Of a DNA stretch of 64,000 nt, positions 266 to 12,243 are shown in pieces. The notes beneath the pieces are model-generated. The model made no database searches and had not been told where the DNA came from. It saw nothing but the letters and a program-made list of their open reading frames with translations. The stretch spans positions 248,001 to 312,000 of the forward strand of contig NZ_FOSG01000001.1 of NCBI RefSeq assembly GCF_900114215.1. The letters run 5' to 3'. The translations under genes and the position numbers were made by a program. Origin of the DNA: Streptomyces mangrovi. GTDB lineage: Bacteria > Actinomycetota > Actinomycetes > Streptomycetales > Streptomycetaceae. Within the stretch, counting starts at the first letter, position 1, and every line of letters starts with the position of its first letter.

Positions 266-1366
266 TCAGGCTCCTTCCAGGTAGAGGGTCGCGGTCTCGG
301 CCCTGGTGCGCTGCGGCGGGGTGACGGCCAGCCCGACGATCCGGTACCGGTCGTCGGCCCCCTCCGGGTGCCACAGGTCCCGGATGCGCAGCCGCAGCCG
401 GGCGCCCAGCAGGGCGGGGGAGATCCGGCCGTCCATCAGCACGGTGATCTGCGGGATGGTCTCCGGGCGTCGGTGCCGGGCCAGTTCGGCACGGGCCAGG
501 GAGTCCAGCACGGCCTGGTCGCGTACGGAGGTGTGGTCGGAGCTGGACTCCAGCCGCGGCCAGCCGCCCGCGATGTCGTCGGCGTCCACCCGCCGCGCGG
601 CCAGCGGCACCGACTCCTGGGACTGGTCGGAGTTGGCCGACTCCCCTCTGGCGACCCATACGTTGGCCTGCACGGTGGCGTCCGAGGGCAGGCTGTAGGT
701 GAGCACCGCGCCGGGGTGGTCCAGCACGATGTCGGCGTGCCCGGTGTGGATCCGGGGGTGGCCGAGCTGGAGCCGTTTGACGCGGCGGCCCTGTGCGTCG
801 CGGTGGCAGTGCACGCGCCACTCGAAGCCGTCGTCCAGCCTGGCCAGCTTGTCGATCAGCTCCCGCACCCGGGCCAGGTCGGTGTAGGCGTGGGCGAAGT
901 CCCGCCGCACCCCGGACACTTCACTCCCGTACCGCAGGCCGATGTCGCCGCCCGGTTGCGCCTGTACGTGGTCGATGAGCGCGCGGACGATGTCGAACTG
1001 GTCGGTGGCCGTGCCCACCACGTCGCCGGAGAGGATGCGGTGGTCGAGGTAGGAGTCGAAGGTGGCGGCCTGGAACTCGGCCTTCGTCCGGCCCTGTTCG
1101 TCGGACTGCGGGGTGCACGTCCACAGCACGCCGCCCCACCGCACGTCCCCGTCGCGCTCCAGCCAGACCGCGGTGCGGCCGGGCCGGAGCGCGGCGCGGG
1201 CCCGGCGGGCGAGCGCCTCGTCCGGCAGCGGGACGGTGGCGGTGAGCGAGCCGGGCTTGCCGATGTAGTCGTCGTACTTCGCCTCGGTCAGCGGCAGTAC
1301 GTCCACCACGCGGTCGGTGCGCAGGTCGCAGAAGACGGCGCGGTGGACGGCGGTGCGCCCGCTCAC
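266..1366 (-). CDS. Siphovirus Gp37-like minor tail protein
   Basis: A 366-residue protein resembling the siphovirus ReqiPepy6 Gp37-like family, found downstream of the distal tail protein in actinophages and taken to be a tail-tip or hub component. It is mostly beta, with motifs such as KPGSLTATVPLPDE, GVLWTCTPQSDEQG and a central GDDVVGTATDQFDIVRAL-type segment. I place the start at the GTG at 1366, which overlaps the stop of the upstream gene by four bases (GTGA), a translational-coupling arrangement. A much longer open frame continues upstream to about 2473, but that part is arginine- and proline-rich noise antisense in phase to the next gene. No lytic or peptidase motif was recognised. 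Confidence 0.75.
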   Translation of the reverse strand: MSGRTAVHRAVFCDLRTDRVVDVLPLTEAKYDDYIGKPGSLTATVPLPDEALARRARAALRPGRTAVWLERDGDVRWGGVLWTCTPQSDEQGRTKAEFQAATFDSYLDHRILSGDVVGTATDQFDIVRALIDHVQAQPGGDIGLRYGSEVSGVRRDFAHAYTDLARVRELIDKLARLDDGFEWRVHCHRDAQGRRVKRLQLGHPRIHTGHADIVLDHPGAVLTYSLPSDATVQANVWVARGESANSDQSQESVPLAARRVDADDIAGGWPRLESSSDHTSVRDQAVLDSLARAELARHRRPETIPQITVLMDGRISPALLGARLRLRIRDLWHPEGADDRYRIVGLAVTPPQRTRAETATLYLEGA

Positions 1367-2490
1367 TCGGCCGGCTCCGCGGACTCGTAGACGAGCGTTC
1401 CGGCGATCTGGGTGCCGGCCGACCAGTCCCACGGGGTGACCGCGTCCACCAGACCGCTGTGGGCGGCCACGGTGCCGTCGAGGTCGCCGGAGGAGACCTC
1501 CATCTCCAGGTGGTCGGCGGTGGTCAGGCGTATCCGGGCGATGCGCCGGGCCCGGGTGCCGTCCTGGAGTCCGGCGAAGCCGGTCGCCTGGCTGGCTCCG
1601 GCCGCCCGGACGGGCAGCGAGAAGCGCCAGTTGTCGCCCGTCCCCCCGGTGCCGAAGACGGTGGTGGAGCCGAAGTAGACGTTGAAGGAGGCGTGCACCA
1701 GGGTGCCGGTGTGCACATAGCGGCACTCGACGGCGGCGTTGCCGAACGAGGGGGTGCCGGCGCCGGTGCTGGTGGTCCAGCGCGGTGTCCACTCCCGCCA
1801 CCTGGGGGTGGGCGGGTAGGGCTGCCAGGCGGTGCCGTCCCAGCGCTGGAGGCCGCCGGCCCCGACGTCCCGGTACTGGCCGGGGTAGCTGCCGGGGATG
1901 TCCCTGGGCCAGTCCTCGGGCACGATGCCGCCGACGGCGACGGTGGCGCGGCGCAGGTCGCCGACGGCCGAGTTCCAGTCGATGCCGCCGGTGCCCTCCG
2001 AGGCGCCCGCGGGCACCAGGACTGTGGCCAGGGCGAGTGCGGCGCGCGGGGTGGCGGGGGCCTGTGGGGTGGCGGCCGGGGCGCCCTGGACGATCTCCAC
2101 GGCCGCCTCGGTGCGGCCGGAGGAGGTGTCCTGGGTCTCGTCGTACACCCGCAGCACCACCAGGTCGATCCGGGGGTTGTCGGGGTCGCCGTCGGCGAAG
2201 GTGACCGGGGTGTACTCGGTGAGGGCGACGGGGTAGGCGCCGGCGGACTTGTCGCCCTGGACGACGGCCCGGCCGGAGGCGACGGTGGCGGTCATGCCGG
2301 CGGACTGGCCGTAGACGTAGAGCCCGGACAGCGCCCACGCGCCGTCCGGGGAGCCGGGGATCACACCGTCGCGCGAGGCGAGCTGGCCGGCCGGGGTCAT
2401 GGTGCCGGTCGGGGTCAGGCGGGTGTCGGCGCGGGACTGGCCGGCGCCGTCCTCGGTGCGGTTGAGCAGCCATGCGGTGCGCACGGGCAT
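1363..2490 (-). CDS. Tail tip / baseplate-like structural protein
   Basis: A 375-residue protein starting ATG at 2490, with AGGAGG six bases upstream. The N-terminal half (about 40-130) resembles phage minor tail proteins with a conserved YVYGQSAGMTATVASGRAVV stretch and NPRIDLVVLRVYD, typical of a baseplate-like module near tail tips in actinophages. The middle carries a WPRDIPGSYPGQYRDVG.GLQRWDGTAW segment, like the short repeats that present a tip domain. The C-terminal about 150 residues look like a jelly-roll and could bind a surface ligand, but this is inference. It is coupled to the downstream Gp37-like gene by a 4-base overlap. Confidence 0.65.
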   Translation of the reverse strand: MPVRTAWLLNRTEDGAGQSRADTRLTPTGTMTPAGQLASRDGVIPGSPDGAWALSGLYVYGQSAGMTATVASGRAVVQGDKSAGAYPVALTEYTPVTFADGDPDNPRIDLVVLRVYDETQDTSSGRTEAAVEIVQGAPAATPQAPATPRAALALATVLVPAGASEGTGGIDWNSAVGDLRRATVAVGGIVPEDWPRDIPGSYPGQYRDVGAGGLQRWDGTAWQPYPPTPRWREWTPRWTTSTGAGTPSFGNAAVECRYVHTGTLVHASFNVYFGSTTVFGTGGTGDNWRFSLPVRAAGASQATGFAGLQDGTRARRIARIRLTTADHLEMEVSSGDLDGTVAAHSGLVDAVTPWDWSAGTQIAGTLVYESAEPAE

Positions 2491-2572
2491 GGGGTTCCTC
2501 CTGTGGGCCGTGTGGATCGTGGTGGGTTGATGTGGTGCGGGCGCGGGTGCGGGTGCGGCGGCGGGCCGCCGG

Positions 2573-3541
2573 TCACCAGTGGGCGTCGCGCCAGCGCACG
2601 GTGGCGGTGGCGCCGGGGTCGGGGACGGTGTCGTCGGAGCGGAAGGCCAGCGGGGTGGCCCCGGGCTCCAGCAGGAACAGCTGCTCGGGCGCCGAGCGTG
2701 CGGTGGCGGTGTACAGCCGGGAGGCGGTCCCGTTGAGGACGACCGTCCCCGCCTGGGTGTCCACGGTCAGCACCTCGCCGGCGGCAAGGGTGATGCCGTA
2801 GCTCAGCCGCAGCCCGTCCGTCAGCCGGGTCAGCGACGGGCGGTGCGCCGGGCCGCGGAACTCGATCACCGGGTGCGCGGCCGTCTCCCCCGAGTTGTGG
2901 GCGGTCACGGTGCCGGTGGAGCCGGTGGTGCCCCAGTCCAGCGGCCAGACCAGGCCGGCCTCCGCCCCGGTGCCGGGTCCGGGCTCGGGGGCGCCTGGGG
3001 CCGTCCACGCCAGTCCGCTCTCCGGCTGCGGCAGGCGCAGTACGGCGCGCTGCTCGCGGACGCCGAAGCGGCGCGGGTCGGTGGCCACCCACTGCAGTTC
3101 GGCCCTGGCCGCGCCCTGCACCACGTAGCCGCGGTCCTGGGGCACGACGCGGCGGCTGACGCGGGCGCGGCAGGCCAGCGTCTCGCCGTGCAGCCGTACC
3201 GCCAGCCACCGCTCGCCGCCGTCGGGGACGGTGGCGGCGCGGAAGCCGCGCATCGTGCCGCGCGCCTGCCCGGCGGTGTCCGGCAGCAGCCAGACGGTCG
3301 CCGAGACGGTGCGCGGTTTGGCCCAGCGTGCGCCGGGCCAGGCGCCGTGGCGGTCGGGCAGGGCGACATCGCCGGTCTCCAGGTCCGGCAGGTCGTCCCA
3401 GCCGGTGATGCCCTTGGCGTCGATCTGGTAGGGGGTGCCGGGGCCGAAAAGAGCCCCGGCCCACTGGATCTGCCCGTCGTGGGTGATCAGTGAGCCGGGG
3501 GGAGTGTCCTGGCCGTTGTGGAGTTGTCCGGTGTCGATCAC
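2573..3541 (-). CDS. Distal tail protein (Dit-like, siphovirus tail component)
   Basis: A 322-residue protein beginning at a GTG (3541). It has the two-part layout of siphovirus distal tail proteins: an N-terminal beta domain that would ring the end of the tail tube (GDVALPDRHGAWPGARWAKPR, then TMRGFRAAT) and a C-terminal galectin-like domain (GTVTAHNSGETAAHPVIEFRG, then LDTQAGTVVLNG-type strands). In siphophages this gene follows the tape measure and precedes the tip/hub proteins, exactly as here. It is 22 bases downstream of the second tape-measure-like gene. The 82-base gap to the next gene holds no obvious terminator. Confidence 0.78.
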   Translation of the reverse strand: MIDTGQLHNGQDTPPGSLITHDGQIQWAGALFGPGTPYQIDAKGITGWDDLPDLETGDVALPDRHGAWPGARWAKPRTVSATVWLLPDTAGQARGTMRGFRAATVPDGGERWLAVRLHGETLACRARVSRRVVPQDRGYVVQGAARAELQWVATDPRRFGVREQRAVLRLPQPESGLAWTAPGAPEPGPGTGAEAGLVWPLDWGTTGSTGTVTAHNSGETAAHPVIEFRGPAHRPSLTRLTDGLRLSYGITLAAGEVLTVDTQAGTVVLNGTASRLYTATARSAPEQLFLLEPGATPLAFRSDDTVPDPGATATVRWRDAHW

Positions 3542-3563
3542 GTTCGGTGTCCTCGCTTCCTGT

Positions 3564-4907
3564 TCACGGCGCCGCCCCCGTCCCCGCGATCGCCTCCGCG
3601 GCCGGCACCGCGGCGCCCGGCTGCGCGGGGTGGGCGGTGCGGGCGAGGAAGAGCAGGTCGTCGGCGACGCCCAGCGGCCCGCGTTCGGCGGGTTCGGTGT
3701 AGTGCTCGATCCGTCCGCCCCGCATCCGCGCGGAGGCGGTGTGGCGGGCGGCGCGGTCCATCAGCCGGCGCAGCGCGGGCAGCGGCAGTACGGCCTCGGC
3801 CTCGCCCGCCTCGGCCACGACCGCCGGCACTCCCCCGCGCCGGGGCAGGGCGACGCCGCCCGCGGCCAGTTGCGGGATCCTGGAGATGTTCACGCCGAAC
3901 TTCTTGCCGAGGACGCTGACACTGAGGCTGTTGAGGCCGTCGATCAGCCAGTTGGCGAAGGCGATCAGCCCGTTGATCGGCGCCTTGAGGACGTGCAGCA
4001 CCAACTGCATGCCCGACTCCAGGAACCCGGCGATCCCGCCCAGCACGCGGCGTGTCGCTCCGGCGACCCGGTCGAACATCCGGCGCGGCCCGGTGGTGAG
4101 CCAGTTCAGCGCCGAGCGGACGGCGCCCCTGATCCGGCCCATGGTGCGGCCGGCGATCGAGCGCAGCGCGCCGCCCGCCGAGGAGACGGTCCTGCGCAGG
4201 GTGCCCATGGGGTCGCGCACCATGCTCGCCAGCCACTTCACCACCGCGGTGACGACCGTGAGGTAGCCCCGTACGTAGCCGGTGGCGATCTTCACCACCG
4301 TCCGTACGGCGGGCTCGATCACCTTGGCGACCGTCCGCACGCCCTGCATGAGGGCCGCGCTGCCCTGCTGGACGATCCGCTGCCCGGCCTCGGACCGCGC
4401 GGCGGCGTCGACCAGGTAGAGGACCAGCGGGGCGACCAGGGAGAGCGCCAGCCCCCAGGGGTTGGCCTTCATCACGGTGTTGACCAGTTTCATCACCCCG
4501 GCGCCCAGGCGCAGTCCGACGCCGAACACGCCGCCGAGCCGGCCGAAGAGGCCGGCGCCCTTGGAGATGCCGCCGGAGAGCGTCGCCGCCCGGGCCGCGC
4601 CGCTTCTGATCCGCTTCAGCTCCCGGTTCGCGGCGGCCGCCTTGGGCCGGGCCGCGGTCAGTTGCGGGTGCGCGGCGCCCGCCCGGCGCCCCAGGCCCGC
4701 CAGTCCCTGGCCGGCGGCCCCGGCCGCGGGGAGCGTGCGCCGCAGTTCGGCCGCGGAGCGCTGGGCGGATCCGCGTACGGCCGCCGCCGCCCGCTGCGCG
4801 GCCCGCACCGCCCGGGTGTTGGCGGCCAGGCCTGCGCGGGCCTGACCCAGTGCTCCGCCGAAGCCGGTGAACGCGGGCCGGGCCGCGGTCAGTTGGTTCA
4901 GCGGCAC
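3564..4907 (-). CDS. Tape-measure-like protein, paralogue 2
   Basis: A 447-residue alanine/arginine-rich helical protein starting GTG at 4907 behind a GGAGGTGGAGG site. The N-terminal about 160 residues are predicted coiled coil, the middle alternates hydrophobic helices (ALSLVAPLVLYLVD, GLIAFANWLIDGLNSL), and the C-terminus has the signature GGVALPRRGGVPAVVAEAGE, then AEAVLPL, followed by RIEHYTEPAERGPLG. The neighbour at 4990-6204 shares this C-terminal signature, so the two are paralogues. Tape measures set tail length; at roughly 0.15 nm per residue this one would specify a tail of only about 65 nm. It may alternatively be a tape-measure-associated tip protein. Confidence 0.68.
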   Translation of the reverse strand: MPLNQLTAARPAFTGFGGALGQARAGLAANTRAVRAAQRAAAAVRGSAQRSAAELRRTLPAAGAAGQGLAGLGRRAGAAHPQLTAARPKAAAANRELKRIRSGAARAATLSGGISKGAGLFGRLGGVFGVGLRLGAGVMKLVNTVMKANPWGLALSLVAPLVLYLVDAAARSEAGQRIVQQGSAALMQGVRTVAKVIEPAVRTVVKIATGYVRGYLTVVTAVVKWLASMVRDPMGTLRRTVSSAGGALRSIAGRTMGRIRGAVRSALNWLTTGPRRMFDRVAGATRRVLGGIAGFLESGMQLVLHVLKAPINGLIAFANWLIDGLNSLSVSVLGKKFGVNISRIPQLAAGGVALPRRGGVPAVVAEAGEAEAVLPLPALRRLMDRAARHTASARMRGGRIEHYTEPAERGPLGVADDLLFLARTAHPAQPGAAVPAAEAIAGTGAAP

Positions 4908-4923
4908 GGCCCTCCACCTCCTT

Positions 4924-4957
4924 CCGTTCTCCCCGTTCTCCCCGTTCTCCCCGTTCC
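4924..4957. repeat. Short tandem repeat, 9-bp unit
   Basis: The unit ccgttctcc occurs three times in tandem (4924-4932, 4933-4941, 4942-4950), followed by a partial copy to 4957. It lies in the gap between the two tape-measure-like genes, just upstream of the ribosome binding site of the 3564-4907 gene. It is a slippage-prone sequence of unknown effect. Confidence 0.8.
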
Positions 4958-4989
4958 TTCCGTCCCCGGGTGTGGTGCGCGCCCGGCCC

Positions 4990-6204
4990 TCATCCGCGGG
5001 CCTTGGCCAGGAGCATCAGCGCGTCGGCGGTCCGCTGCGGGTCGCCGGTCTCGGCGGCGTAGTAGTGCTCGATGTGCAGCCGGCCGGCTCCGGTCGCCGC
5101 GGCTGCCGTGCCGTAGGGCCCGGGCGTGCCCCGGCCCGCCCGGGCGGCGGTCAGTCCCAGCAGCGACTCCAGCCTGGACAGCGGAAGTACGGCCTCGGCC
5201 TCGCCCGCCTCGGCGAGGATCGCGGGCACACCGCCGGAGCGGGGGGTGACGACACCGCCCTCGGCCAGTCTGGGGATGGTGGGCAGGCTGACGCCGAAGG
5301 TCTTGCCGCCGACCATCGGCACCCAGCCGGGGATCGACACCCTGATGCCGTTGATGCGCCGGATCGCCCGGTTGATGATGTCGATGACGCCGTTGACCGG
5401 CCCCCTGACACCGTTCTTGACCCTGCCGAAGGCCCGTGAGGCGATGCCGGAGAGCCGTCCCCAGATCTGGCTCATCCTGTCCCGCACGGCGCGGAAGGCT
5501 GCCGGGATCGTGGTCCTGATCCAGTTGACGACGGGCTGGACGACCCTCTTGATGCCGTTCATCACGGCGCCGATGGTGTTGCGGACGGCCCGGACGGCCG
5601 TGGTGATGACGGCCTTCCAGATGGCGAAGTAGGTCCTGACCACCTTCACGATGGCCTTGACCACCACCGACACGGCCGTCCTGATGCCGTTGAAGACCGA
5701 CTTGAAGATCCTGCCCAGGCTGCTCAGCAGCGGTCCGATGACCTTCATGGCCTTCTTGAGGACCTCGCCGACCACGGTGAAGACCTTCTTCATCACCCGC
5801 TGCATGGTCTTCGACTGGGTGGCCATCGCGACGATCTTCTCGATGACCGGTGTGAGCAGCGAGAGCAGCATCCCGAAGATGTTGCCCTTCATCTCCTTGT
5901 TGAGCTGCTTGAACCCGCCGGAGGCCTTCTTGGCCCCCTGCTGCATCCGCGTCATCTGCGGGCCGCTCTTGACGGCCTCGCGGCCCAGCTTGGAAACGGA
6001 GAGGGCGGCCTGGTCGGCCGCCCTCTTCATCGTCGTCAGTTCCTTGTTGGTGCGTCTCGCGCCGGTGGTGATCCGCGTGACGCTCCGGTCCGCGGCGGCC
6101 GCCTGCCGGCCCAGGCCGGTCGCGGCCCGTCCGGCCGTGTCCGAGGCCGATTTGAACTGCCGCAACGTGCCCGAGGCCCGTTGCAGCGCACTGCTGAGTG
6201 ACAT
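4990..6204 (-). CDS. Tape-measure-like protein, paralogue 1
   Basis: A 404-residue lysine/valine-rich helical protein starting ATG at 6204 with GGGAGGG seven bases upstream. The N-terminal about 110 residues are basic coiled coil, residues about 120-300 are a chain of amphipathic helices (FGMLLSLLTPVIEKIVAMA, then VVGEVLKKAMKVIGPLLSSL), and the C-terminus reads LAEGGVVTPRSGGVPAILAE, then AGEAEAVLPLSRLESL, a hallmark of actinophage tape measures. It follows the assembly-chaperone genes, as a tape measure should, although two small genes and an opposite-strand gene intervene. It is very short for a siphophage tape measure, which usually exceeds 600 residues. Confidence 0.75.
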   Translation of the reverse strand: MSLSSALQRASGTLRQFKSASDTAGRAATGLGRQAAAADRSVTRITTGARRTNKELTTMKRAADQAALSVSKLGREAVKSGPQMTRMQQGAKKASGGFKQLNKEMKGNIFGMLLSLLTPVIEKIVAMATQSKTMQRVMKKVFTVVGEVLKKAMKVIGPLLSSLGRIFKSVFNGIRTAVSVVVKAIVKVVRTYFAIWKAVITTAVRAVRNTIGAVMNGIKRVVQPVVNWIRTTIPAAFRAVRDRMSQIWGRLSGIASRAFGRVKNGVRGPVNGVIDIINRAIRRINGIRVSIPGWVPMVGGKTFGVSLPTIPRLAEGGVVTPRSGGVPAILAEAGEAEAVLPLSRLESLLGLTAARAGRGTPGPYGTAAAATGAGRLHIEHYYAAETGDPQRTADALMLLAKARG

Positions 6205-6234
6205 GGTCTACCCTCCCGGGCCCGCTCGCCGGCC

Positions 6235-6777
6235 CTAGCCCAGAGCGGCCCTCAACGACTCGATCTCCGTACGCAGGCGCGCGATGTCCCCCCGCGTGCG
6301 GCCCAGTCCCATGAATCCCCGGCTCGGCTCCTGCCGCGGTGCGCGTGCCTCGGACACCCGCTGACGCATGTTCCTCAGGTCGCTCGACGCCCGCTGGGCC
6401 TGCTCACGCGCGGAATCCGCCGTCCGGCGGACCGTCGCGACGCTCTGCTCGACCTCCGCCCTGGTGACCGGGGGCTCGTTTCCGAGCTGCGGCCACCTCC
6501 GGTTCATCTCGGCCTCGAAATTCTGGATGTAGTTCGGCTTCCAGACCTGCGCACCGGCGACCGTCAATCCGCTCTCGTCGAACTTCACCAGGTCATAGGC
6601 GAAGGTGCCGAACGAGATGTCTGTCTTGAGCGCCTGAAAACTGGCGTACAGCACCTGCACCGAGTCGTTGACGTCCTTGAAGTGCTCGGACCACCACTGC
6701 TGGAATCCCTCAAGGGCACTGGCCGTGTCCTCGGCGCCCGGCGCGATGTAAACGCTTTCTCCGTCGGCTTCCGCCAT
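6235..6777 (-). CDS. Coiled-coil protein of the tail module, unrecognised
   Basis: A 180-residue acidic protein whose ATG at 6777 follows a near-perfect GGAGGAG site. Residues 1-105 look globular (FQQWWSEHFKDVNDSVQVLY, then FGTFAYDLVKFDESGLTVAG). Residues about 110-150 form a heptad-like coiled coil (VATVRRTADSAREQAQRASS), and the last 25 form a second helix. It ends 30 bases before paralogue 1 of the tape measure and so is transcribed with it. I do not recognise the family; a WXG-like WW pair near residue 28 is noted but the spacing does not match WXG100 proteins. It could be a tape-measure partner or a cargo protein. Confidence 0.6.
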   Translation of the reverse strand: MAEADGESVYIAPGAEDTASALEGFQQWWSEHFKDVNDSVQVLYASFQALKTDISFGTFAYDLVKFDESGLTVAGAQVWKPNYIQNFEAEMNRRWPQLGNEPPVTRAEVEQSVATVRRTADSAREQAQRASSDLRNMRQRVSEARAPRQEPSRGFMGLGRTRGDIARLRTEIESLRAALG

Positions 6778-6919
6778 TTCTCCTCCTGTTCGATCAACCC
6801 GCTCCGAAAGGCCCGCGCCACAAACACCCCGCCATTCGCGGGAGCACGCCACAAAATCGTGATTCTCCTTTTCCGGGCGGGCGTTGACGGGGCGCCGGAC
6901 GGAAAAGTAATCTGACGGG

Positions 6920-7327
6920 ATGGAATTTCTGGGCCTGCTCCTCACGACCCTGAGCATCGCGATCGGCGCCCTGGGGGTCAGGCTCCTGCTTCCGCACCTG
7001 CGGAACGACAGGTTCGCCCGGGGGGATTCCGGCGTCCGCACCACGGGCGAGTGCGTCAACATGCGCTGGACCTCGGGCGGCTGGGTGTCCAGCATCATCG
7101 CCTACGAGGACGCCGACGGGGAGCGGCGGTTCGCGTCCACCGGCGCCCGTCCGACCGTCCCCGTGCAGCTGGGGGAGACCGCCGAGGTCTACTACGATCC
7201 GCGGGGCGAGGCCCAGGCGGTCGTGAACGGCGAGACGCCACCCAAGGGGTTCTACGCCTTCTGCATGGTGCCGATCGGCGTCAGCCTGGCCTTCGGCGCC
7301 ATCGGGCTCTACTACCTGCTGGTCTGA
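6920..7327 (+). CDS. DUF3592-type small membrane protein on the opposite strand
   Basis: A 135-residue protein with an N-terminal membrane helix (FLGLLLTTLSIAIGALGVRL), a small extracytoplasmic beta domain (TTGECVNMRWTSGGWVSSII, then GETAEVYYDPRGEAQAV) and a C-terminal helix (FCMVPIGVSLAFGAIGLYYL). This is the layout of DUF3592 proteins, whose function is unknown. It is the only rightward gene inside the leftward tail operon, sitting between the chaperone and tape-measure genes, so it is either a moron-like insertion or a gene with a separate role such as self-protection. The ATG at 6920 follows an AT-richer stretch but only a weak ribosome site. Confidence 0.72.
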   Translation: MEFLGLLLTTLSIAIGALGVRLLLPHLRNDRFARGDSGVRTTGECVNMRWTSGGWVSSIIAYEDADGERRFASTGARPTVPVQLGETAEVYYDPRGEAQAVVNGETPPKGFYAFCMVPIGVSLAFGAIGLYYLLV

Positions 7328-7372
7328 GACCGGGACGGGGAGGCGGCGCCCCGGCCCGGCCCCGGCACCCCC

Positions 7373-7594
7373 TCACCCGGCCCGCTCGCCCCCGGCGGCC
7401 TCCATCGCGTCCTGCCAGCCGGCGGCGTAGGCGCGGGCGTCGCGGGCGTCCAGCTCCGCGCGGACCGCGAGGAGCAGTTGCTCCGCGGCGGGCCCGTCCA
7501 GGCGCCGGAATATCCCGCCCAGCAGTCGCTGGAGCTCCCCGGCGGCCTCCGCCCGGGTCGTGTCCTGGCCGGTCTCGTAGCTCTCCGTCGCCAC
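7373..7594 (-). CDS. Small unrecognised protein in the tail operon
   Basis: A 73-residue, helix-rich, alanine-heavy protein. The frame is open up to 7702, but upstream codons look non-coding and GTG 7594, with GAGAGGG about 10 bases ahead, gives a sensible helical N-terminus (ATESYETGQDTTRAEAAGEL). The C-terminal half reads AEQLLLAVRAELDARDARAY, probably one long helix. It lies between the frameshifted chaperone gene and the coiled-coil protein. An AT-rich patch and a TTGCGC-type half-site upstream (7661-7667) might give it its own promoter. Function unknown. Confidence 0.5.
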   Translation of the reverse strand: MATESYETGQDTTRAEAAGELQRLLGGIFRRLDGPAAEQLLLAVRAELDARDARAYAAGWQDAMEAAGGERAG

Positions 7595-7808
7595 CCCTAT
7601 CACCCTCTCCGGCTTGTGGTGCCATATGACCTGCTTGGATGCGTACACGGGGGTCACGGGCGCGCAACGGAGGTGGGGGTGTTGCGTACCCAGCGTCATC
7701 ATACGGCCGCATGGAGCAAAAAATCGAACACAGTTTTGTTTTGGTACGGACCGGGGCCGGCCCCGCCGCCGGGAAGCGGACGCGGACGGCCCCGGTGGGC
7801 GGCCTCCG

Positions 7809-8557
7809 TCAGCCGAAGAAGCGGGCCAGCTCGCGCGCGGAGGGGCCCGAGGCGGGTGCGCGCTCCGGCTCGGTGCCGGGCGTGTCGCCCAACTCCCCCT
7901 CCTCCGGACCCTGTTCCTCCGGTTCCGGCCGCTCCGGCTCCTCCGGCCGCTGTCCGGGCCGGGGGACCGGCTCCGGGTACTCCGGCGGCTCGTCGTCCTC
8001 GTCGCGGTGGAGCGCGGCCGTCATCCAGTTCGCCGCCGCCAGATGGTCCACGGCGGCGGCCAGCAGATGCTCGGCCGCGCCCCACTGGGCCGCCTCCCCG
8101 TGGTCGGCGAGGTTGACCGCGCTGTCGCGCGGCAGATGGCGGATCAGGACGGCCAGGCGGCGGGAGGAGAGCCCGCCGCGGTACCAGTCCAAAAGATCGA
8201 CCCCGTAGTACCGGAGCAGGTCGGCTTCCAGTGCCTCGGCGTGTTCGTCGACGAACGCGTCGAGGCTCAGCCTTCCCCCAGGCCGAGCCCGGTGGCCTTC
8301 CCGTACGCCTCCAGGATCGCGGCCACGTCCTGCATGGAGACGTCGTGCCGGTCGAAGCGGTCGAACTGCTCCTCGCCCAGCAGCAGGCGCAGCAGGCCGT
8401 CGATGTCGTTGTCGTCCAGTTCGCGCAGGGCGCGGGCGGTACGGCGGCTGAGCTCGCCGGGCATCTCGAAGGTGTCGCCGTCGATGGTGAAGGTCCAGGC
8501 GCGGCCCAGGGCCTCCGTGCGCTGGGCGCGTGCGGCGTTGACGTCGAACGTGGTCAT
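7809..8557 (-). CDS. Tail assembly chaperone, long form made by -1 frameshift
   Basis: The second open frame (stop at 7809) runs without a stop back to the end of the first chaperone but has no credible start codon near its beginning. It is in the -1 frame relative to the upstream gene, and the overlap contains G-GGG-GAA just before the upstream stop. Slipping there would give 94 + 155 = 249 residues. The extension starts RLSLDAFVDEHAEALEADLL, continues through YRGGLSSRRLAVLIRHLP and ends in an acidic, proline-rich tail (DDEPPEYPEPVPRPGQRPEE). This matches the gpG/gpGT arrangement of siphophages, where the long form helps load the tape measure during tube assembly. Confidence 0.72.
8267..8557 (-). 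CDS. Tail assembly chaperone, short form (gpG-like)
   Basis: A 96-residue acidic protein starting ATG at 8557 with AAGGAG upstream. Residues FTIDGDTFEMPGELSRRTAR and LDDNDIDGLLRLLLGEEQFD resemble the small tail assembly chaperones encoded between the major tail protein and the tape measure in actinophages. It stops immediately after a G-rich slippery stretch that would let a minority of ribosomes continue into the next frame. It lies 121 bases downstream of the major tail gene in the same operon. The chaperone would coat the tape measure and recruit tube subunits. Confidence 0.75.
   Translation of the reverse strand: MTTFDVNAARAQRTEALGRAWTFTIDGDTFEMPGELSRRTARALRELDDNDIDGLLRLLLGEEQFDRFDRHDVSMQDVAAILEAYGKATGLGLGEG
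8273..8279 (-). other. Probable -1 programmed frameshift site
   Basis: On the coding strand the seven bases GGGGGAA (8279 down to 8273) precede the TGA of the short chaperone by three bases. Zero-frame codons are GGG-GAA-GGC-TGA, and a -1 slip gives GGG-GGA-AGG-CTG. The glycyl-tRNA re-pairs perfectly, and only the second codon would mismatch. The downstream frame is open for 155 more codons and lacks its own start. Confidence 0.65.
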
Positions 8558-8678
8558 GTCTGGTCGGCTCCTTGCCGGGGTGTCGGGGTGTCGGGATCGG
8601 GACGGAAGCGGAGGGCGCCGGGCCCGGGGGCCCGGCGCCGGTGCTGTGCTTGCCGTGCGGTTCCGCGTGCGGGACCGG

Positions 8679-9263
8679 TCAGGCCGGGGTGGTGCCGACG
8701 AAGTCGGGGTCCTTGACCAGCCAGGTGGCCAGCGGGGTGGCGGCGTCAACCGCCATCGCCGTGAAGGTGACGCCGAGCTTCAGCGAACCCTTGCGGTTCA
8801 TCTCGACCTCGTCGGTGTCGGTGACCTGACCGCGCGGCAGGACGAAGCGGTAGACGACCTCCTCGCCGTCGGTGAACTCCAGGCCCAGCGACCGCTCGTC
8901 CGGGATCGGGTCGGAGAGCACGTCGTACTGGTAGACGCCCGAGCCGGCCGCGGTCTCCCTGACCTCGCCGCCGCCGAAGTACAGCGGCAGGGTGTCCGGG
9001 TTGAACTGGAGCATGCTGAACTTCACCGTCATGTCCCGGTCCTCGTAGATGAAGCGGGCCGGGCCGACGGACTGCCAGGTGTCGACCTGGGAGGTCTTCT
9101 CCTTGCGGCCGAACTTCACGCCGTCGGAGCTGGTGTAGCCGACATCGGTCCAGCCGGTGCCCCACTCGGAGGCGGTGTCGGCCGGGGCGGCGGTGCCCAC
9201 CGGGGCGACGAGGATGCGGCCGTTGCCGGCCACGCGGATCTGGTTGGGGTTCATACCTGCCAT
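8679..9263 (-). CDS. Major tail tube protein
   Basis: A 194-residue protein starting ATG at 9263 behind GAGGAG. It shows the composition of siphovirus major tail proteins: an N-terminal arm (NPNQIRVAGNGRILVAPVGT), a TEWGTGWTDVGYTSSDGVKF-type strand, a central VGPARFIYEDRDMTVKFSML and a C-terminal EMNRKGSLKLGVTFTAMAVD. No contractile sheath protein is encoded nearby, which argues for a non-contractile tail. The position between the tail terminator and the assembly chaperones is canonical. An Ig-like C-terminal extension, frequent in phage tails, is absent. Confidence 0.8.
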   Translation of the reverse strand: MAGMNPNQIRVAGNGRILVAPVGTAAPADTASEWGTGWTDVGYTSSDGVKFGRKEKTSQVDTWQSVGPARFIYEDRDMTVKFSMLQFNPDTLPLYFGGGEVRETAAGSGVYQYDVLSDPIPDERSLGLEFTDGEEVVYRFVLPRGQVTDTDEVEMNRKGSLKLGVTFTAMAVDAATPLATWLVKDPDFVGTTPA

Positions 9264-9403: not shown

Positions 9404-9820
9404 TCAGCCGGTCTGGACCGGAGTGAGCGACAACCGCACCGTGGTCAGGTAGCGGTTGGCGTCGAGCCGGTTGTAGTCGGGCAGCCAGCGGACGCCGTCC
9501 GCCTCGACCACATCGGTGACCGTGGCCGTCCCGTGGGTGGTGCCGCGCAGTTGCAGCAGCGCGGCGCGCATGCCCAGCGAGTCGGTGTGGGCCGTGGTCT
9601 TGTCCGGCCCGTAGACCTCGAGCTCCACCAGGGGGTTGTCGAGGTGGAGGTCGTCGACCCACGCCCCGCCCACCCGGGAGACCAGCACCACGCGCTGGGT
9701 TCCGTCGAACCCGGCCGGCGGGACGTTGTCCACCGTCACTCCGGTGAGCTCCGGCCGGTCGCCGAGGAAGTCGACGATCAGACGCTCGACGTCCGGGAAC
9801 GCCAGCAGCGGATCAACCAC
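9404..9820 (-). CDS. Tail terminator / tail completion-like protein
   Basis: A 138-residue protein starting GTG at 9820 directly after AAGGAAGGAGGAGG, the strongest ribosome site in the operon. The fold signature (VVDPLLAFPDVERLIVDFLG, then VLVSRVGGAWVDDLHLDNPL, then VELEVYGPDKTTAH) fits the short alpha/beta tail terminator proteins of siphophages, which cap the tube before head joining. It is the first gene of the leftward operon: upstream there is only a promoter, an operator and the repressor gene. A capsid-joining partner is not present, so in this setting the protein would simply close the tube. Confidence 0.7.
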   Translation of the reverse strand: MVDPLLAFPDVERLIVDFLGDRPELTGVTVDNVPPAGFDGTQRVVLVSRVGGAWVDDLHLDNPLVELEVYGPDKTTAHTDSLGMRAALLQLRGTTHGTATVTDVVEADGVRWLPDYNRLDANRYLTTVRLSLTPVQTG

Positions 9821-9924
9821 ACGCCTCCTCCTTCCTTGAAGAGGGCGGGCGGGCCGCAGGAGCCCGCCCATGACGAACGGCGGGCCGCGCCCGGGATACG
9901 GGCACAGCTCCGCCGCTGCGTCCA

Positions 9925-9953
9925 AGTGTGAACCAGATCGTGCGAGCGCGCAA
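9925..9953 (-). promoter_or_regulatory. Promoter of the tail operon with operator
   Basis: Reading leftwards, TTGCGC (9953-9948) and CACACT (9930-9925) are separated by 17 bases, about 105 bases ahead of the tail terminator start. The -35 element is part of an 18-bp site (9936-9953) that matches the perfect operator at 10700-10717 in 14 of 18 positions. The -10 is weak, as expected for a promoter that needs induction. Confidence 0.5.
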
Positions 9954-10086
9954 CTAATAAGGCGTGGCGACTTTCCGGAGAGCCCGCGCCAAACCGTCCG
10001 GGAGCGGGCGCGAAGCGCGTAAGGGGGGTACCGCGACCGGCGGGCGGCGACCGTTGCCGACGGCCGTCATCGACCCGTACGGCAGT

Positions 10087-10123
10087 CCGGCCCGGCCCCG
10101 CGTGGAACGCGGGACCGGGCCGG
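10087..10123 (-). terminator. Terminator of the repressor gene
   Basis: A 16-bp stem with one mismatch (CCGGCCCGG.CCCGCG at 10087-10102 against 10108-10123) closes over a 5-base loop, 29 bases past the repressor stop. There is no U-tract, as is usual in Streptomyces. The rest of 9954-10151 shows no gene. Confidence 0.65.
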
Positions 10124-10151
10124 GGGAAGGAGGGATCGCGCGGCGACGCGG

Positions 10152-10595
10152 TCAGGCGCGGCGGCGCGCGGGAGGCTCCGCGGGGCCGCCCTCGGGCAGG
10201 AACTGGCTCGCCACCCTGACGAACATCTCCCGCTGCCCGGCCGGGATGCCCAGCAGTTCGGCGGCGCGCTCCAGGGTGAGCGGTTCCTCCGCCCCGCCGT
10301 CCGCGCGACCCCCGGCGGACGGCGGCAGCGGCAGTTCGTCGGGGGTGAGCTGACCGGAGCGGACGAGCATCTCCCGCACCGGGACCCTCAGCACCCGGGC
10401 GAGCCGCCGCATGGTCTCCAGATCGGGCATGCTGTGCCGCTGCAGCAGCCGGGTGATCGCCGCGCGGTGGACGCCGGCGGCGTCGGCGAGACGCGACTTG
10501 CCGCCACCCCGCGGGCTGTCGATGTCGTAACCCCGCTCCCGGATCAGCCCTTCGATCCAGGTCGCGAAAGCTTCCAGATCCTGCGCTGCGGCCAT
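10152..10595 (-). CDS. XRE-family repressor controlling the tail module
   Basis: A 147-residue protein with an N-terminal helix-turn-helix of the cro/C1 type (about 10-75: GKSRLADAAGVHRAAITRLL, then LETMRRLARVLRVPVREML) and a C-terminal helical segment (LTLERAAELLGIPAGQREMF) that is too small to be a LexA-type self-cleaving domain. The start is the ATG at 10595 with AAGGGGG before it. It faces a divergent operon across a 170-base region containing three copies of a palindromic site, and a fourth copy lies at the tail promoter, which suggests autoregulation and control of the tail genes. The trigger for derepression is not evident. Confidence 0.78.
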   Translation of the reverse strand: MAAAQDLEAFATWIEGLIRERGYDIDSPRGGGKSRLADAAGVHRAAITRLLQRHSMPDLETMRRLARVLRVPVREMLVRSGQLTPDELPLPPSAGGRADGGAEEPLTLERAAELLGIPAGQREMFVRVASQFLPEGGPAEPPARRRA

Positions 10596-10623
10596 GGCTC
10601 GCCCCCTTCGTGGACCCTCAGCA

Positions 10624-10718
10624 TAACGTGCTTTCGCGCACGGCATTACGTGCTATCGAGCGCGAAATGGGAGATCCGGCGAACCTCGGCGGATATTTGT
10701 TGCGTGCCAGCGCGCAAC
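10624..10718. promoter_or_regulatory. Divergent regulatory region with three repressor operators
   Basis: Three related sites: TAACGTGCTTTCGCGCAC (10624-10641), TTACGTGCTATCGAGCGC (10646-10663) and the best palindrome GTTGCGTGCCAGCGCGCAAC (10699-10718). The common half-site is T-T-G/A-CGTGC facing GCGCGCAA. The first two lie in the repressor leader, and the third lies between the -35 and -10 of the rightward promoter. Confidence 0.65.
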
Positions 10719-10725
10719 GTAGGAT
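10697..10725 (+). promoter_or_regulatory. Rightward promoter of the regulatory operon
   Basis: TTGTTG (10697-10702) and TAGGAT (10720-10725) are exactly 17 bases apart, a good match to the vegetative Streptomyces promoter. The spacer is filled by the best repressor palindrome, so binding would block the polymerase. Transcription would start about 38 bases before the 30-codon leader gene. Confidence 0.68.
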
Positions 10726-10770
10726 CGTGTACTCCCGCACCGACAGTGACACGCACCAAGGGAGTCGCCC

Positions 10771-10863
10771 ATGGCATCCGCCACCCGCACACCGGCGGGC
10801 CCCGGCCGCCGCGAGCCGTTACGGCACCGGCCGGCGCCGACCCGGAAGGAGAGGACCGCATGA
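10771..10863 (+). CDS. 30-codon leader gene with a TTA codon
   Basis: A small open frame starting ATG at 10771 behind AAGGGAGT and ending in the ATGA overlap with the next gene. The peptide is 30 residues, basic and proline-rich (MASATRTPAGPGRREPLRHR to start). Codon 17 is TTA (10819-10821), the rare bldA-read leucine codon. The strong Shine-Dalgarno and the 4-base overlap suggest that translation of this leader couples to the downstream zinc-ribbon gene. The peptide itself may have no function, and conservation is untested. Confidence 0.5.
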   Translation: MASATRTPAGPGRREPLRHRPAPTRKERTA

Positions 10864-11480
10864 GTGGCACCGTCCGTACCGAGACCGCCCGCCGGCTGGG
10901 CGCACTGCGCCGCCAGTTCCCCGAGCTCCTCGCCGAACTGGCGCCCGGCGGCCGCAGTCCGGCCGTACCCGGCCCGACCCCCGGCCCCGCCGGGGGCGCC
11001 CGGTCCACCGCCCCGCTGCGCCTGCACATCTCCGACGCCATCCGCGACATCACCGACGGCGTCACCGAACTGGAGGAGGCCGTGCACGACAGGCTCGGCC
11101 TCCCCCGCCCGCAGCGCGCACGGATCCCCCGGCGGATCGGGCGCCTGCTGGGCCTGCTCGACCGCATCGGCCGCGATGCGGTCCTCGCCGAGCACGTCCT
11201 GGACGAGGCCCGCAGGATGAGCCGCCGCTGCTCGCGGGCGCTGGGCGGCAGCGAGGCGATGACGGCCGTCGACGGGCGCTGCCCGTGGTGCGCCTCCGTC
11301 TCCCTGCGCGCCTTCCCCGAGCGCCGGGCCGTGCTGTGCATCAACCCCGGCTGCCGCTGCGACGACCCCGGGTGCGCCTGCCGCACCGACCCCGCCCACC
11401 GGCACTCCTGGCCGCGGCACGCGCTGCCGCACGAGCCGCCGGACGGACTGCCGGACGGACCGCGGGGCGGTGGCGCCTGA
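10860..11480 (+). CDS. Zinc-ribbon-like regulatory protein, unrecognised family
   Basis: A 206-residue protein starting ATG at 10860 with AAGGAGAGG upstream. Residues about 50-120 are helical (LRLHISDAIRDITDGVTELE), and about 140-175 holds a cysteine cluster (CPWCASVSLRAF, then LCINPGCRCDDPGCACR) likely to bind zinc. Similar proteins occur beside small HTH genes in actinophages and Streptomyces mobile regions, where they are presumed regulatory. It is coupled at both ends (ATGA with the leader gene, TGATG with the HTH gene), so the three are one operon divergent from the repressor. It may be the activator or anti-repressor of the tail module. Confidence 0.6.
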   Translation: MSGTVRTETARRLGALRRQFPELLAELAPGGRSPAVPGPTPGPAGGARSTAPLRLHISDAIRDITDGVTELEEAVHDRLGLPRPQRARIPRRIGRLLGLLDRIGRDAVLAEHVLDEARRMSRRCSRALGGSEAMTAVDGRCPWCASVSLRAFPERRAVLCINPGCRCDDPGCACRTDPAHRHSWPRHALPHEPPDGLPDGPRGGGA

Positions 11481-11653
11481 TGCTGGTCACCGCGGCGATG
11501 GCTGCCCGCGAGGTGTCGGTCACCCCGGCCACCATCCGCAAGTGGGTGCAGCTCGGCCGCCTCGCCCCGGCGGGGCGGCAGGGGCGCGCCCTGCTCTACC
11601 GGCTGGAGGACGTCTTCGCCGCCGAACGCTCCGCCCGCCGACCCGGCGGGTGA
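11480..11653 (+). CDS. Small MerR/excisionase-type HTH protein
   Basis: A 57-residue winged-helix protein (MLVTAAMAAREVSVTPATIR, then KWVQLGRLAPAG, then ALLYRLEDVFAAER) of the HTH_17 family, which includes excisionases and MerR-like DNA binders. It starts one base into the stop of the preceding gene (TGATG). No integrase or attachment site is present, so it is more likely a transcription regulator of the tail module than an excisionase. The 125 bases to the next gene contain nothing notable. Confidence 0.7.
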   Translation: MLVTAAMAAREVSVTPATIRKWVQLGRLAPAGRQGRALLYRLEDVFAAERSARRPGG

Positions 11654-11778
11654 CCCGCCGGCCTCCCCGGACACATTCCCGCCCGCCCCGGAGGCCGTGC
11701 CGGACGGCGCCGGACACCCCGGACGCCGTGACGAACGGGTGAGGCCGGGTTAGCGGGCGGTGAGCGGAGGTACTCGGA

Positions 11779-12243
11779 GTGCTGACCCATGAGGGGAGCG
11801 CGACGACGATGAGCACGATGCAGCGGATGGACGGACACAAGCACGGGCACGGCCCCGGTCAGGAGCACTCCGTCGGCGAACTGGTGGCGCGGGCCACCGC
11901 GCAGATGTCGCAGCTCATGAAGGAGGAGCTGCAGCTCGCCAAGATGGAGATGTCCGAGAAGGGCAAGCGGGCCGGGATGGGCGGCGGCATGCTCGGCGGC
12001 GCCGGGGTGGTCGCGCTGTACGCGGTGGGCGCCGGTGTGACGGCCGCGATCGCCGGTCTGTCCGTGGTGTGGCCGGTGTGGCTGTCCGCCCTGGTGATCA
12101 TGGCGGTGCTGTTCCTCGTCGCCGGGGTGCTGGCGGTCCTGGGACGGCAGCAGATGCGCAGGGCGACGCCCGCCAAGCCCGAGCGGGCGCTGCGGGGCGT
12201 GCACGACGACCTGGACGAGATCAGGGGAAGGGTACGACGATGA
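11779..12243 (+). CDS. Holin-X / DUF1469 family membrane protein
   Basis: A 154-residue protein with a His-rich N-terminus, an amphipathic segment (ATAQMSQLMKEELQLAKMEM) and two membrane helices (about 75-95 and 102-125), the layout of the actinobacterial 'phage holin family' (PF07332). These are conserved chromosomal genes in Streptomyces and not demonstrated holins. I choose the GTG at 11779 because GGAGG lies eight bases ahead; an alternative ATG at 11809 has a poorer site. It overlaps the DUF3618 gene by four bases. Although next to the tail module, it looks like a normal chromosomal neighbour. Confidence 0.78.
   Translation: MLTHEGSATTMSTMQRMDGHKHGHGPGQEHSVGELVARATAQMSQLMKEELQLAKMEMSEKGKRAGMGGGMLGGAGVVALYAVGAGVTAAIAGLSVVWPVWLSALVIMAVLFLVAGVLAVLGRQQMRRATPAKPERALRGVHDDLDEIRGRVRR

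Follow-up and report, generated by a model that had tools for sequence, protein, structure and literature searches.

The window, by which we mean the whole stretch of 64,000 nucleotides that was analysed, is part of a Streptomyces chromosome and contains a regulatory gene set between a divergent operon and an operon of phage tail genes. The repressor gene (10152-10595, minus strand) encodes a 147-aa helix-turn-helix (HTH) protein of the XRE/Cro-CI type, which matches Pfam HTH_3 (3e-9) and PHROG 3949, a family of transcriptional repressors (2e-16), and whose HTH is near-invariant among orthologues. In this protein Pfam recognises only the HTH and no S24 protease domain; a C-terminal S24 domain capable of self-cleavage, such as lambda CI has, is not a universal requirement for phage repressors. 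The repressor is 38-42% identical to the immunity repressors of phages ToastyFinz, Tubberson and SoJo. Its profile had no match among solved structures, and a peptide-pattern search of viral contigs gave no close relatives.

On the plus strand, the divergent operon begins with a 30-aa ORF (10771-10863) at the place where relatives carry a WhiB-like gene. The ORFs of these relatives (L197, L198, L083 and others) score above the Pfam Whib cut-off, alignment shows this region to be shortened in the window, L195 and L196, and the 30-aa ORF is likely a remnant of the WhiB-like gene. It is followed by p2 (10860-11480, plus strand), a conserved partner of 206 aa that contains cysteines (phrog_1467, 9e-10) and has a weak rubredoxin-like match below the cut-off (PF16919, 2e-4), and by p3 (11480-11653, plus strand), a MerR-like HTH protein of 57 aa (HTH_17, 3e-6; phrog_2474, 1e-13). 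Unrelated chromosomal genes lie to the right of p3.

The tail operon, on the minus strand, encodes a tail terminator (9404-9820; phrog_123, 5e-20), a major tail tube protein (8679-9263; PF25681, 6e-68), a tail assembly chaperone in two frames (8267-8557, phrog_10551, 7e-27; 7809-8192, phrog_5813, 4e-19), tape-measure-like proteins in two ORFs (3538-6204), and distal (Dit) and minor tail proteins (266-3541). The second chaperone frame is probably reached by frameshift. A GGGGGAA string (8260-8300, minus strand) immediately precedes the stop codon of the first chaperone ORF, and the second ORF has no good start; a programmed frameshift is likely here by analogy with phage tail chaperones. The operon runs on past the left window edge, just beyond which are found an Amidase_2 endolysin and two small conserved ORFs. 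Capsid (PF05065), terminase (PF03354) and portal (PF04860), the three head families covered, have no match in the genome. In one relative (L059), the tail and lysis genes are flanked on the left by ORFs that look by eye like defence or toxin genes, among them an AAA ATPase pair and a PIN-domain protein (3341-8627 and 11673-12101 of that locus).

Predicted operators and promoters of the module

Candidate sites were scored with a weight matrix built from 21 divergent-promoter sites of relatives, the window's own site and all tail sites being excluded from its training. Over the 64-kb window, the site at 10699 ranks first (26.5), that at 9935 second (9.3) and that at 10649 fourth (4.1). The main operator (10699-10718, no strand assigned), GTTGCGTGCCAGCGCGCAAC, overlaps with its left arm the -35 of the divergent promoter (10700-10728, plus strand), which is composed of TTGCGT (10700-10705), a 17-bp spacer and GATCGT (10723-10728). 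It is the sole match at three or fewer mismatches in the window, where dinucleotide shuffles lead one to expect 0.03. The sequence-only reading had called this site perfect, which it is not: 8 of the 9 bases of its arms (GTTGCGTGC / GTTGCGCGC) pair. Genome-wide counts were obtained by pattern searches. The core palindrome TTGCGNGCNNGCNCGCAA is matched exactly only once in the 6.34-Mb genome, so that the 18-bp motif is not equally frequent genome-wide; with two mismatches allowed, its count is at the level of the reversed-pattern control (29 versus 30 in all). The half-operator CGNGCNNGCNCGCAAC has 10 matches in the genome, three of which stem from the 10699 and 9935 sites.

The promoter around the main operator had been read as TTGTTG-N17-TAGGAT. 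This string is present, but TAGGAT is lost in the nearest differing relatives (GTGTGAACGTG, ATGTGAAGGTGA, GTGTGATCGTGC) and absent from L197, L198 and L225, and we rejected it as a promoter. Among 61 divergent-promoter loci, in contrast, TTGCGN-N17-NANNNT is retained in 95%: NANNNT lies exactly 17 bp from the TTG of the left arm in 95% and hardly ever at other spacings, a geometry that is also supported by an alignment with close relatives. Of 37 tail promoters, 73% have NANNNT at 17 bp and 16% have it one base further. This fixed distance between arm and NANNNT indicates that the left arm of the operator is itself the -35 of both the divergent and the tail promoters.

The tail-promoter operator (9935-9954, minus strand), GTTGCGCGCTCGCACGATCT, is asymmetric, with a degenerate right arm; the relative of the palindrome at these positions is AGATCGTGCGAGCGCGCAAC. 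Its matrix score is far under that of the divergent site, and the next in the window (7.5) lies inside a distant gene. A fourth site had indeed been announced at the -35 of the tail promoter, and it is there, starting one base to the left of the position then given. The promoter itself (9925-9953, minus strand) consists of TTGCGC (9953-9948), a 17-bp spacer and CACACT (9930-9925), and its TCAC shows no variation across 29 aligned leaders. The 20-mer GTTGCGCGCTCGCACGATCT is identical at the tail promoter of the window, of S. griseus (L202) and of several others, and some loci (L049, L098, L265) have full palindromes there. The GCGCAAC/GTTGCGT half-sites proposed at 7661-7689 exist as strings, but their operator scores are low and they are not kept in L197 and L198, and we dropped them as operator half-sites.

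Two further relatives of the palindrome had been noted in the repressor leader; both are present, and conserved in related genomes. Leader operator 1 (10626-10642), ACGTGCTTTCGCGCACG, fills the spacer of the predicted repressor promoter, and leader operator 2 (10648-10664), ACGTGCTATCGAGCGCG, lies at and upstream of its -35; neither has an assigned strand, and the two form a direct repeat 22 bp apart. Both are weak by matrix in the window, the second being matched at 10649-10668. Leader operator 1 keeps its position in 21 of 30 loci, one of these matches being divergent, and also in six close relatives, while the conserved form of leader operator 2 in relatives is TTACGTGC. The predicted promoter (10620-10648, minus strand) comprises TAATGC (10648-10643), a 17-bp spacer and TATGCT (10625-10620), its TANNNT is kept in most aligned leaders, and we infer that it is the repressor's own. 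The family of palindromic sites is real at the repressor leader and at the divergent and tail promoters, and falls away at 7661-7689, as does the claim of a perfect site and of a TAGGAT promoter.

Conservation of repressor, leader and predicted operators

The first genome set comprised 199 Streptomyces genomes, the window's own included. The 198 others contain 33 further close repressor orthologues, nearly all of them 56-75% identical, with a clear gap before weaker matches. Divergent promoters were extracted from 29 of these 33 loci, and most have the palindrome at the same place. The exact core palindrome occurs in 19 of the 199 genomes, all 19 of which have a close repressor orthologue (Fisher p 1e-17); the reversed-pattern control occurs in four, none with such an orthologue. 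A second, named collection provided 80 loci, 64 of them not duplicates of the first set; L195 (S. barkulensis) and L196 (S. verrucosisporus), which are nearly the window's species, were counted as duplicates. In 61 of the 64 independent loci, one of which belongs to a Kitasatospora (L255), a palindrome scoring above 99.9% of background lies upstream of the repressor, and in 61 the upstream site is the best match of the entire locus. Which protein binds does not follow from linkage alone, since the repressor is usually accompanied by p2 and p3. Loci in which these partners separate are more telling: the palindrome is kept in L244, L254, L266, L274, L052 and L055, where the repressor is present and p2/p3 are undetectable, and it is missing in L103, where p2, p3 and tails are present and the repressor is not linked. 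More generally, no operator was found in L101-L105, five Streptomyces genomes with tail terminator and tube genes but without a linked repressor.

At the tail promoter, upstream of the terminator gene, a site above 99% of background was found in all 13 loci with repressor-side tails and in 24 of the 39 whose tails lie beyond p3, where about 1% would be expected. The matrix scan finds no tail operator in the other 15 of these p3-side loci; in loci of the diverged repressor clade, the tail operator tends to be missing and the tails lie beyond p3. Together with the association of core and repressor in both collections, these sites give strong comparative support to the earlier proposal that a single repressor would control the repressor gene itself as well as the divergent and tail operons. 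The operator core was also inspected in 80 stretches of viral contigs; none has the module, and they look like chance matches. The module is complete in one viral contig (L193), which was retrieved through the 20-mer of the tail leader.

This 20-mer, GCAGCGGCGGAGCTGTGCCC (9919-9900), is the box of a 5' leader hairpin of the tail operon (9878-9919, minus strand) whose 3' arm is CCCGCCG (9884-9878). The box is found in 25 of the 199 genomes, all 25 with the repressor; its occurrence in L194, inside a large ORF and with no module genes, was set aside as chance. An alignment of 29 relatives shows the hairpin to be GC-rich, conserved and located at the predicted transcript start. Pairing is possible in 94% of the alignment cells, against 33-69% when partners are slid by 1-3 columns, and three of five measures lie beyond every one of 500 shuffles, whereas the measures that count pairs or types were reached by 191 and 216 of them. 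At the pair 25-68, 16 of the 29 sequences have G-C and 11 have A-U, a change that follows clades, so that independent events are few. The tail leader (L041, L087, L090) has no gathering match in Rfam, and the hairpin is a new RNA candidate at a place where phages often put antitermination or attenuation control. As a separate observation, the repressor codons for LLQRQSMPDLE contain, in L039, L041, L054, L083 and others, GCAGCGGCAGAGCATG, which differs from the tail-leader box by at most two bases and lies on the same strand relative to the transcript; this likeness is probably a codon coincidence.

LexA-like boxes accompany the tail leader in 20 of 62 loci and the divergent promoter in 17 of 80, compared with 58 of 1405 background segments (4%). 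Boxes with one or two mismatches to TCGAACN4GTTCGA occur at the divergent promoters of L021 and L024-L032 and at the tail promoters of L083-L085, L100 and L041. In the window, no good box lies near the tail or divergent promoters; a candidate with three mismatches (7724-7739) precedes a small ORF (7373-7630, minus strand). Relatives have homologues of this ORF, which is possibly an antirepressor, beside the repressor or within the tail cluster, and a LexA-like box often precedes them.

Regulatory model and alternative explanations

We propose that the palindromic sites are operators through which the adjacent CI-like XRE repressor acts on its own, the divergent and the tail promoters of a tailocin-like module, a reading based on comparative sequence analysis to which we give a probability of about 0.86. 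The palindrome GTTGCGNGCNNGCNCGCAAC would be occupied by a repressor dimer, and its left arm would double as the -35 of the divergent and tail promoters (TTGCGN, with NANNNT 17 bp downstream), so that bound repressor would exclude RNA polymerase, and the two sites over the spacer and -35 of the repressor promoter would lead to autoregulation. Since symmetry is highest at the divergent site and the tail site is half-degenerate, the tail operon would probably be released first as the repressor falls. With a siphophage-type tail and an endolysin, and apparently headless, the controlled module resembles an F-type tailocin and may work like one. The sequences themselves show the sites, how they are conserved, their joint occurrence with the repressor, the geometry of the promoters and the gene content; binding, repression, order of release and particle function are the parts of this account that we infer. 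A wider reading, which we consider unlikely as a whole, would place the repressor as one level in a domesticated, genus-wide circuit with an input linked to LexA, the WhiB-like and rubredoxin-like proteins as redox or developmental sensor and an RNA gating the tail-lysis operon (by an attenuator or by put-like antitermination in the tail leader), from which non-contractile tail particles would be released under stress.

A chance origin of the motif in GC-rich DNA might be suggested by the abundance of GCGC-type words in Streptomyces DNA, where degenerate versions of the motif are common, but it deserves practically no credence: exact matches occur only in repressor-bearing genomes and within the module, position and promoter spacing are fixed, and the genus-wide count refutes it. 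It is very improbable, too, that the palindrome is an activator site or the target of p3, p2 or the WhiB-like protein, with the repressor simply linked. Indeed, most loci with the repressor also have p2 and p3, p3, being MerR-like, could itself bind DNA, and the sites flank promoters; however, the loci in which the partners separate show the palindrome following the repressor, the site persists in the window and in its two nearest relatives although the WhiB-like gene is gone there, and a position over the -35, or over the spacer at the repressor gene, suits repression.

The tail promoter could also lie outside this repressor, with LexA or the leader RNA driving or gating it and the 9935 site a decayed relic. 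The excess of LexA-like boxes near tail leader and divergent promoter and the degenerate right arm would fit, as would S. venezuelae, where the most strongly induced LexA targets include a prophage cluster that is bound by LexA, contains a phage tail fiber gene and may not be the present module (PMC9380542). Yet the asymmetric form is itself conserved as an identical 20-mer in S. griseus and others, tail-site scores exceed background in every repressor-side locus, other loci have full palindromes there and the window has no good LexA box near these promoters, which makes this explanation improbable. Rather more weight, within the range of the unlikely, goes to the view that the module is a decaying prophage remnant and not a functional tailocin-like particle: Streptomyces prophages are common and often defective (PMC10023795), the window has lost the WhiB-like gene and its tape-measure region is in two ORFs. 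Decay would not give what is observed, namely tail, leader, operators and repressor conserved in dozens of species with open frames. Control by the adjacent repressor is the reading that we retain.

Significance and comparison with known systems

This kind of system is known, but in the literature searched we found no description of this instance, of its genus-wide spread or of the leader RNA, and no match that combines phage tail-like genes, repressor and operator for Streptomyces. The type of switch is ordinary; what it would control is a little-studied and possibly weapon-like particle. The operator code, conserved across dozens of Streptomyces species and in a single Kitasatospora, opens the way to derepression by removing one gene of a laboratory strain, which makes it testable whether Streptomyces produces F-type tailocins and what triggers them.

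Control of many operators by one repressor is familiar from the phiC31 repressor and its conserved inverted repeats across a Streptomyces phage. The temperate Streptomyces phages ToastyFinz, Tubberson, SoJo, SV1 and Austintatious have a homologous XRE repressor (32-42% identity) and, as here, a divergent early gene opposite it with the regulatory region between them. Several of these repressors adjoin a serine integrase, opposite cro, and those of Tubberson and SV1 lie between a cro-like gene and the integrase. Their candidate operators, of the TTTCNNNNGAAAG type and clearest in Austintatious, are unlike those of the module, so that specificity is not transferable from them; moreover, they are complete phages, whereas the three head families covered gave no match for the module.

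Rhizoviticin of Allorhizobium vitis (PMC10811719), the Listeria monocin (PMC7076858) and the F-pyocins combine a non-contractile tail with lysis genes and no heads, much like our apparently headless module. The rhizoviticin locus is thought to be held off by a CI-like repressor (PMC10811719), for which a LexA/S24 domain was proposed that the present repressor does not have; an SOS link is another trait of such systems. The divergent WhiB-like/p2/p3 operon and the structured leader are features of the module that the F-type tailocin literature, in the parts available, does not mention. Finally, the Streptomyces contractile injection systems (PMC10066040, PMC10020575, PMC10286715) are likewise conserved chromosomal phage-tail-like clusters, but they are contractile, whereas the module has a siphophage-type tube (PF25681) associated with Dit and an endolysin.
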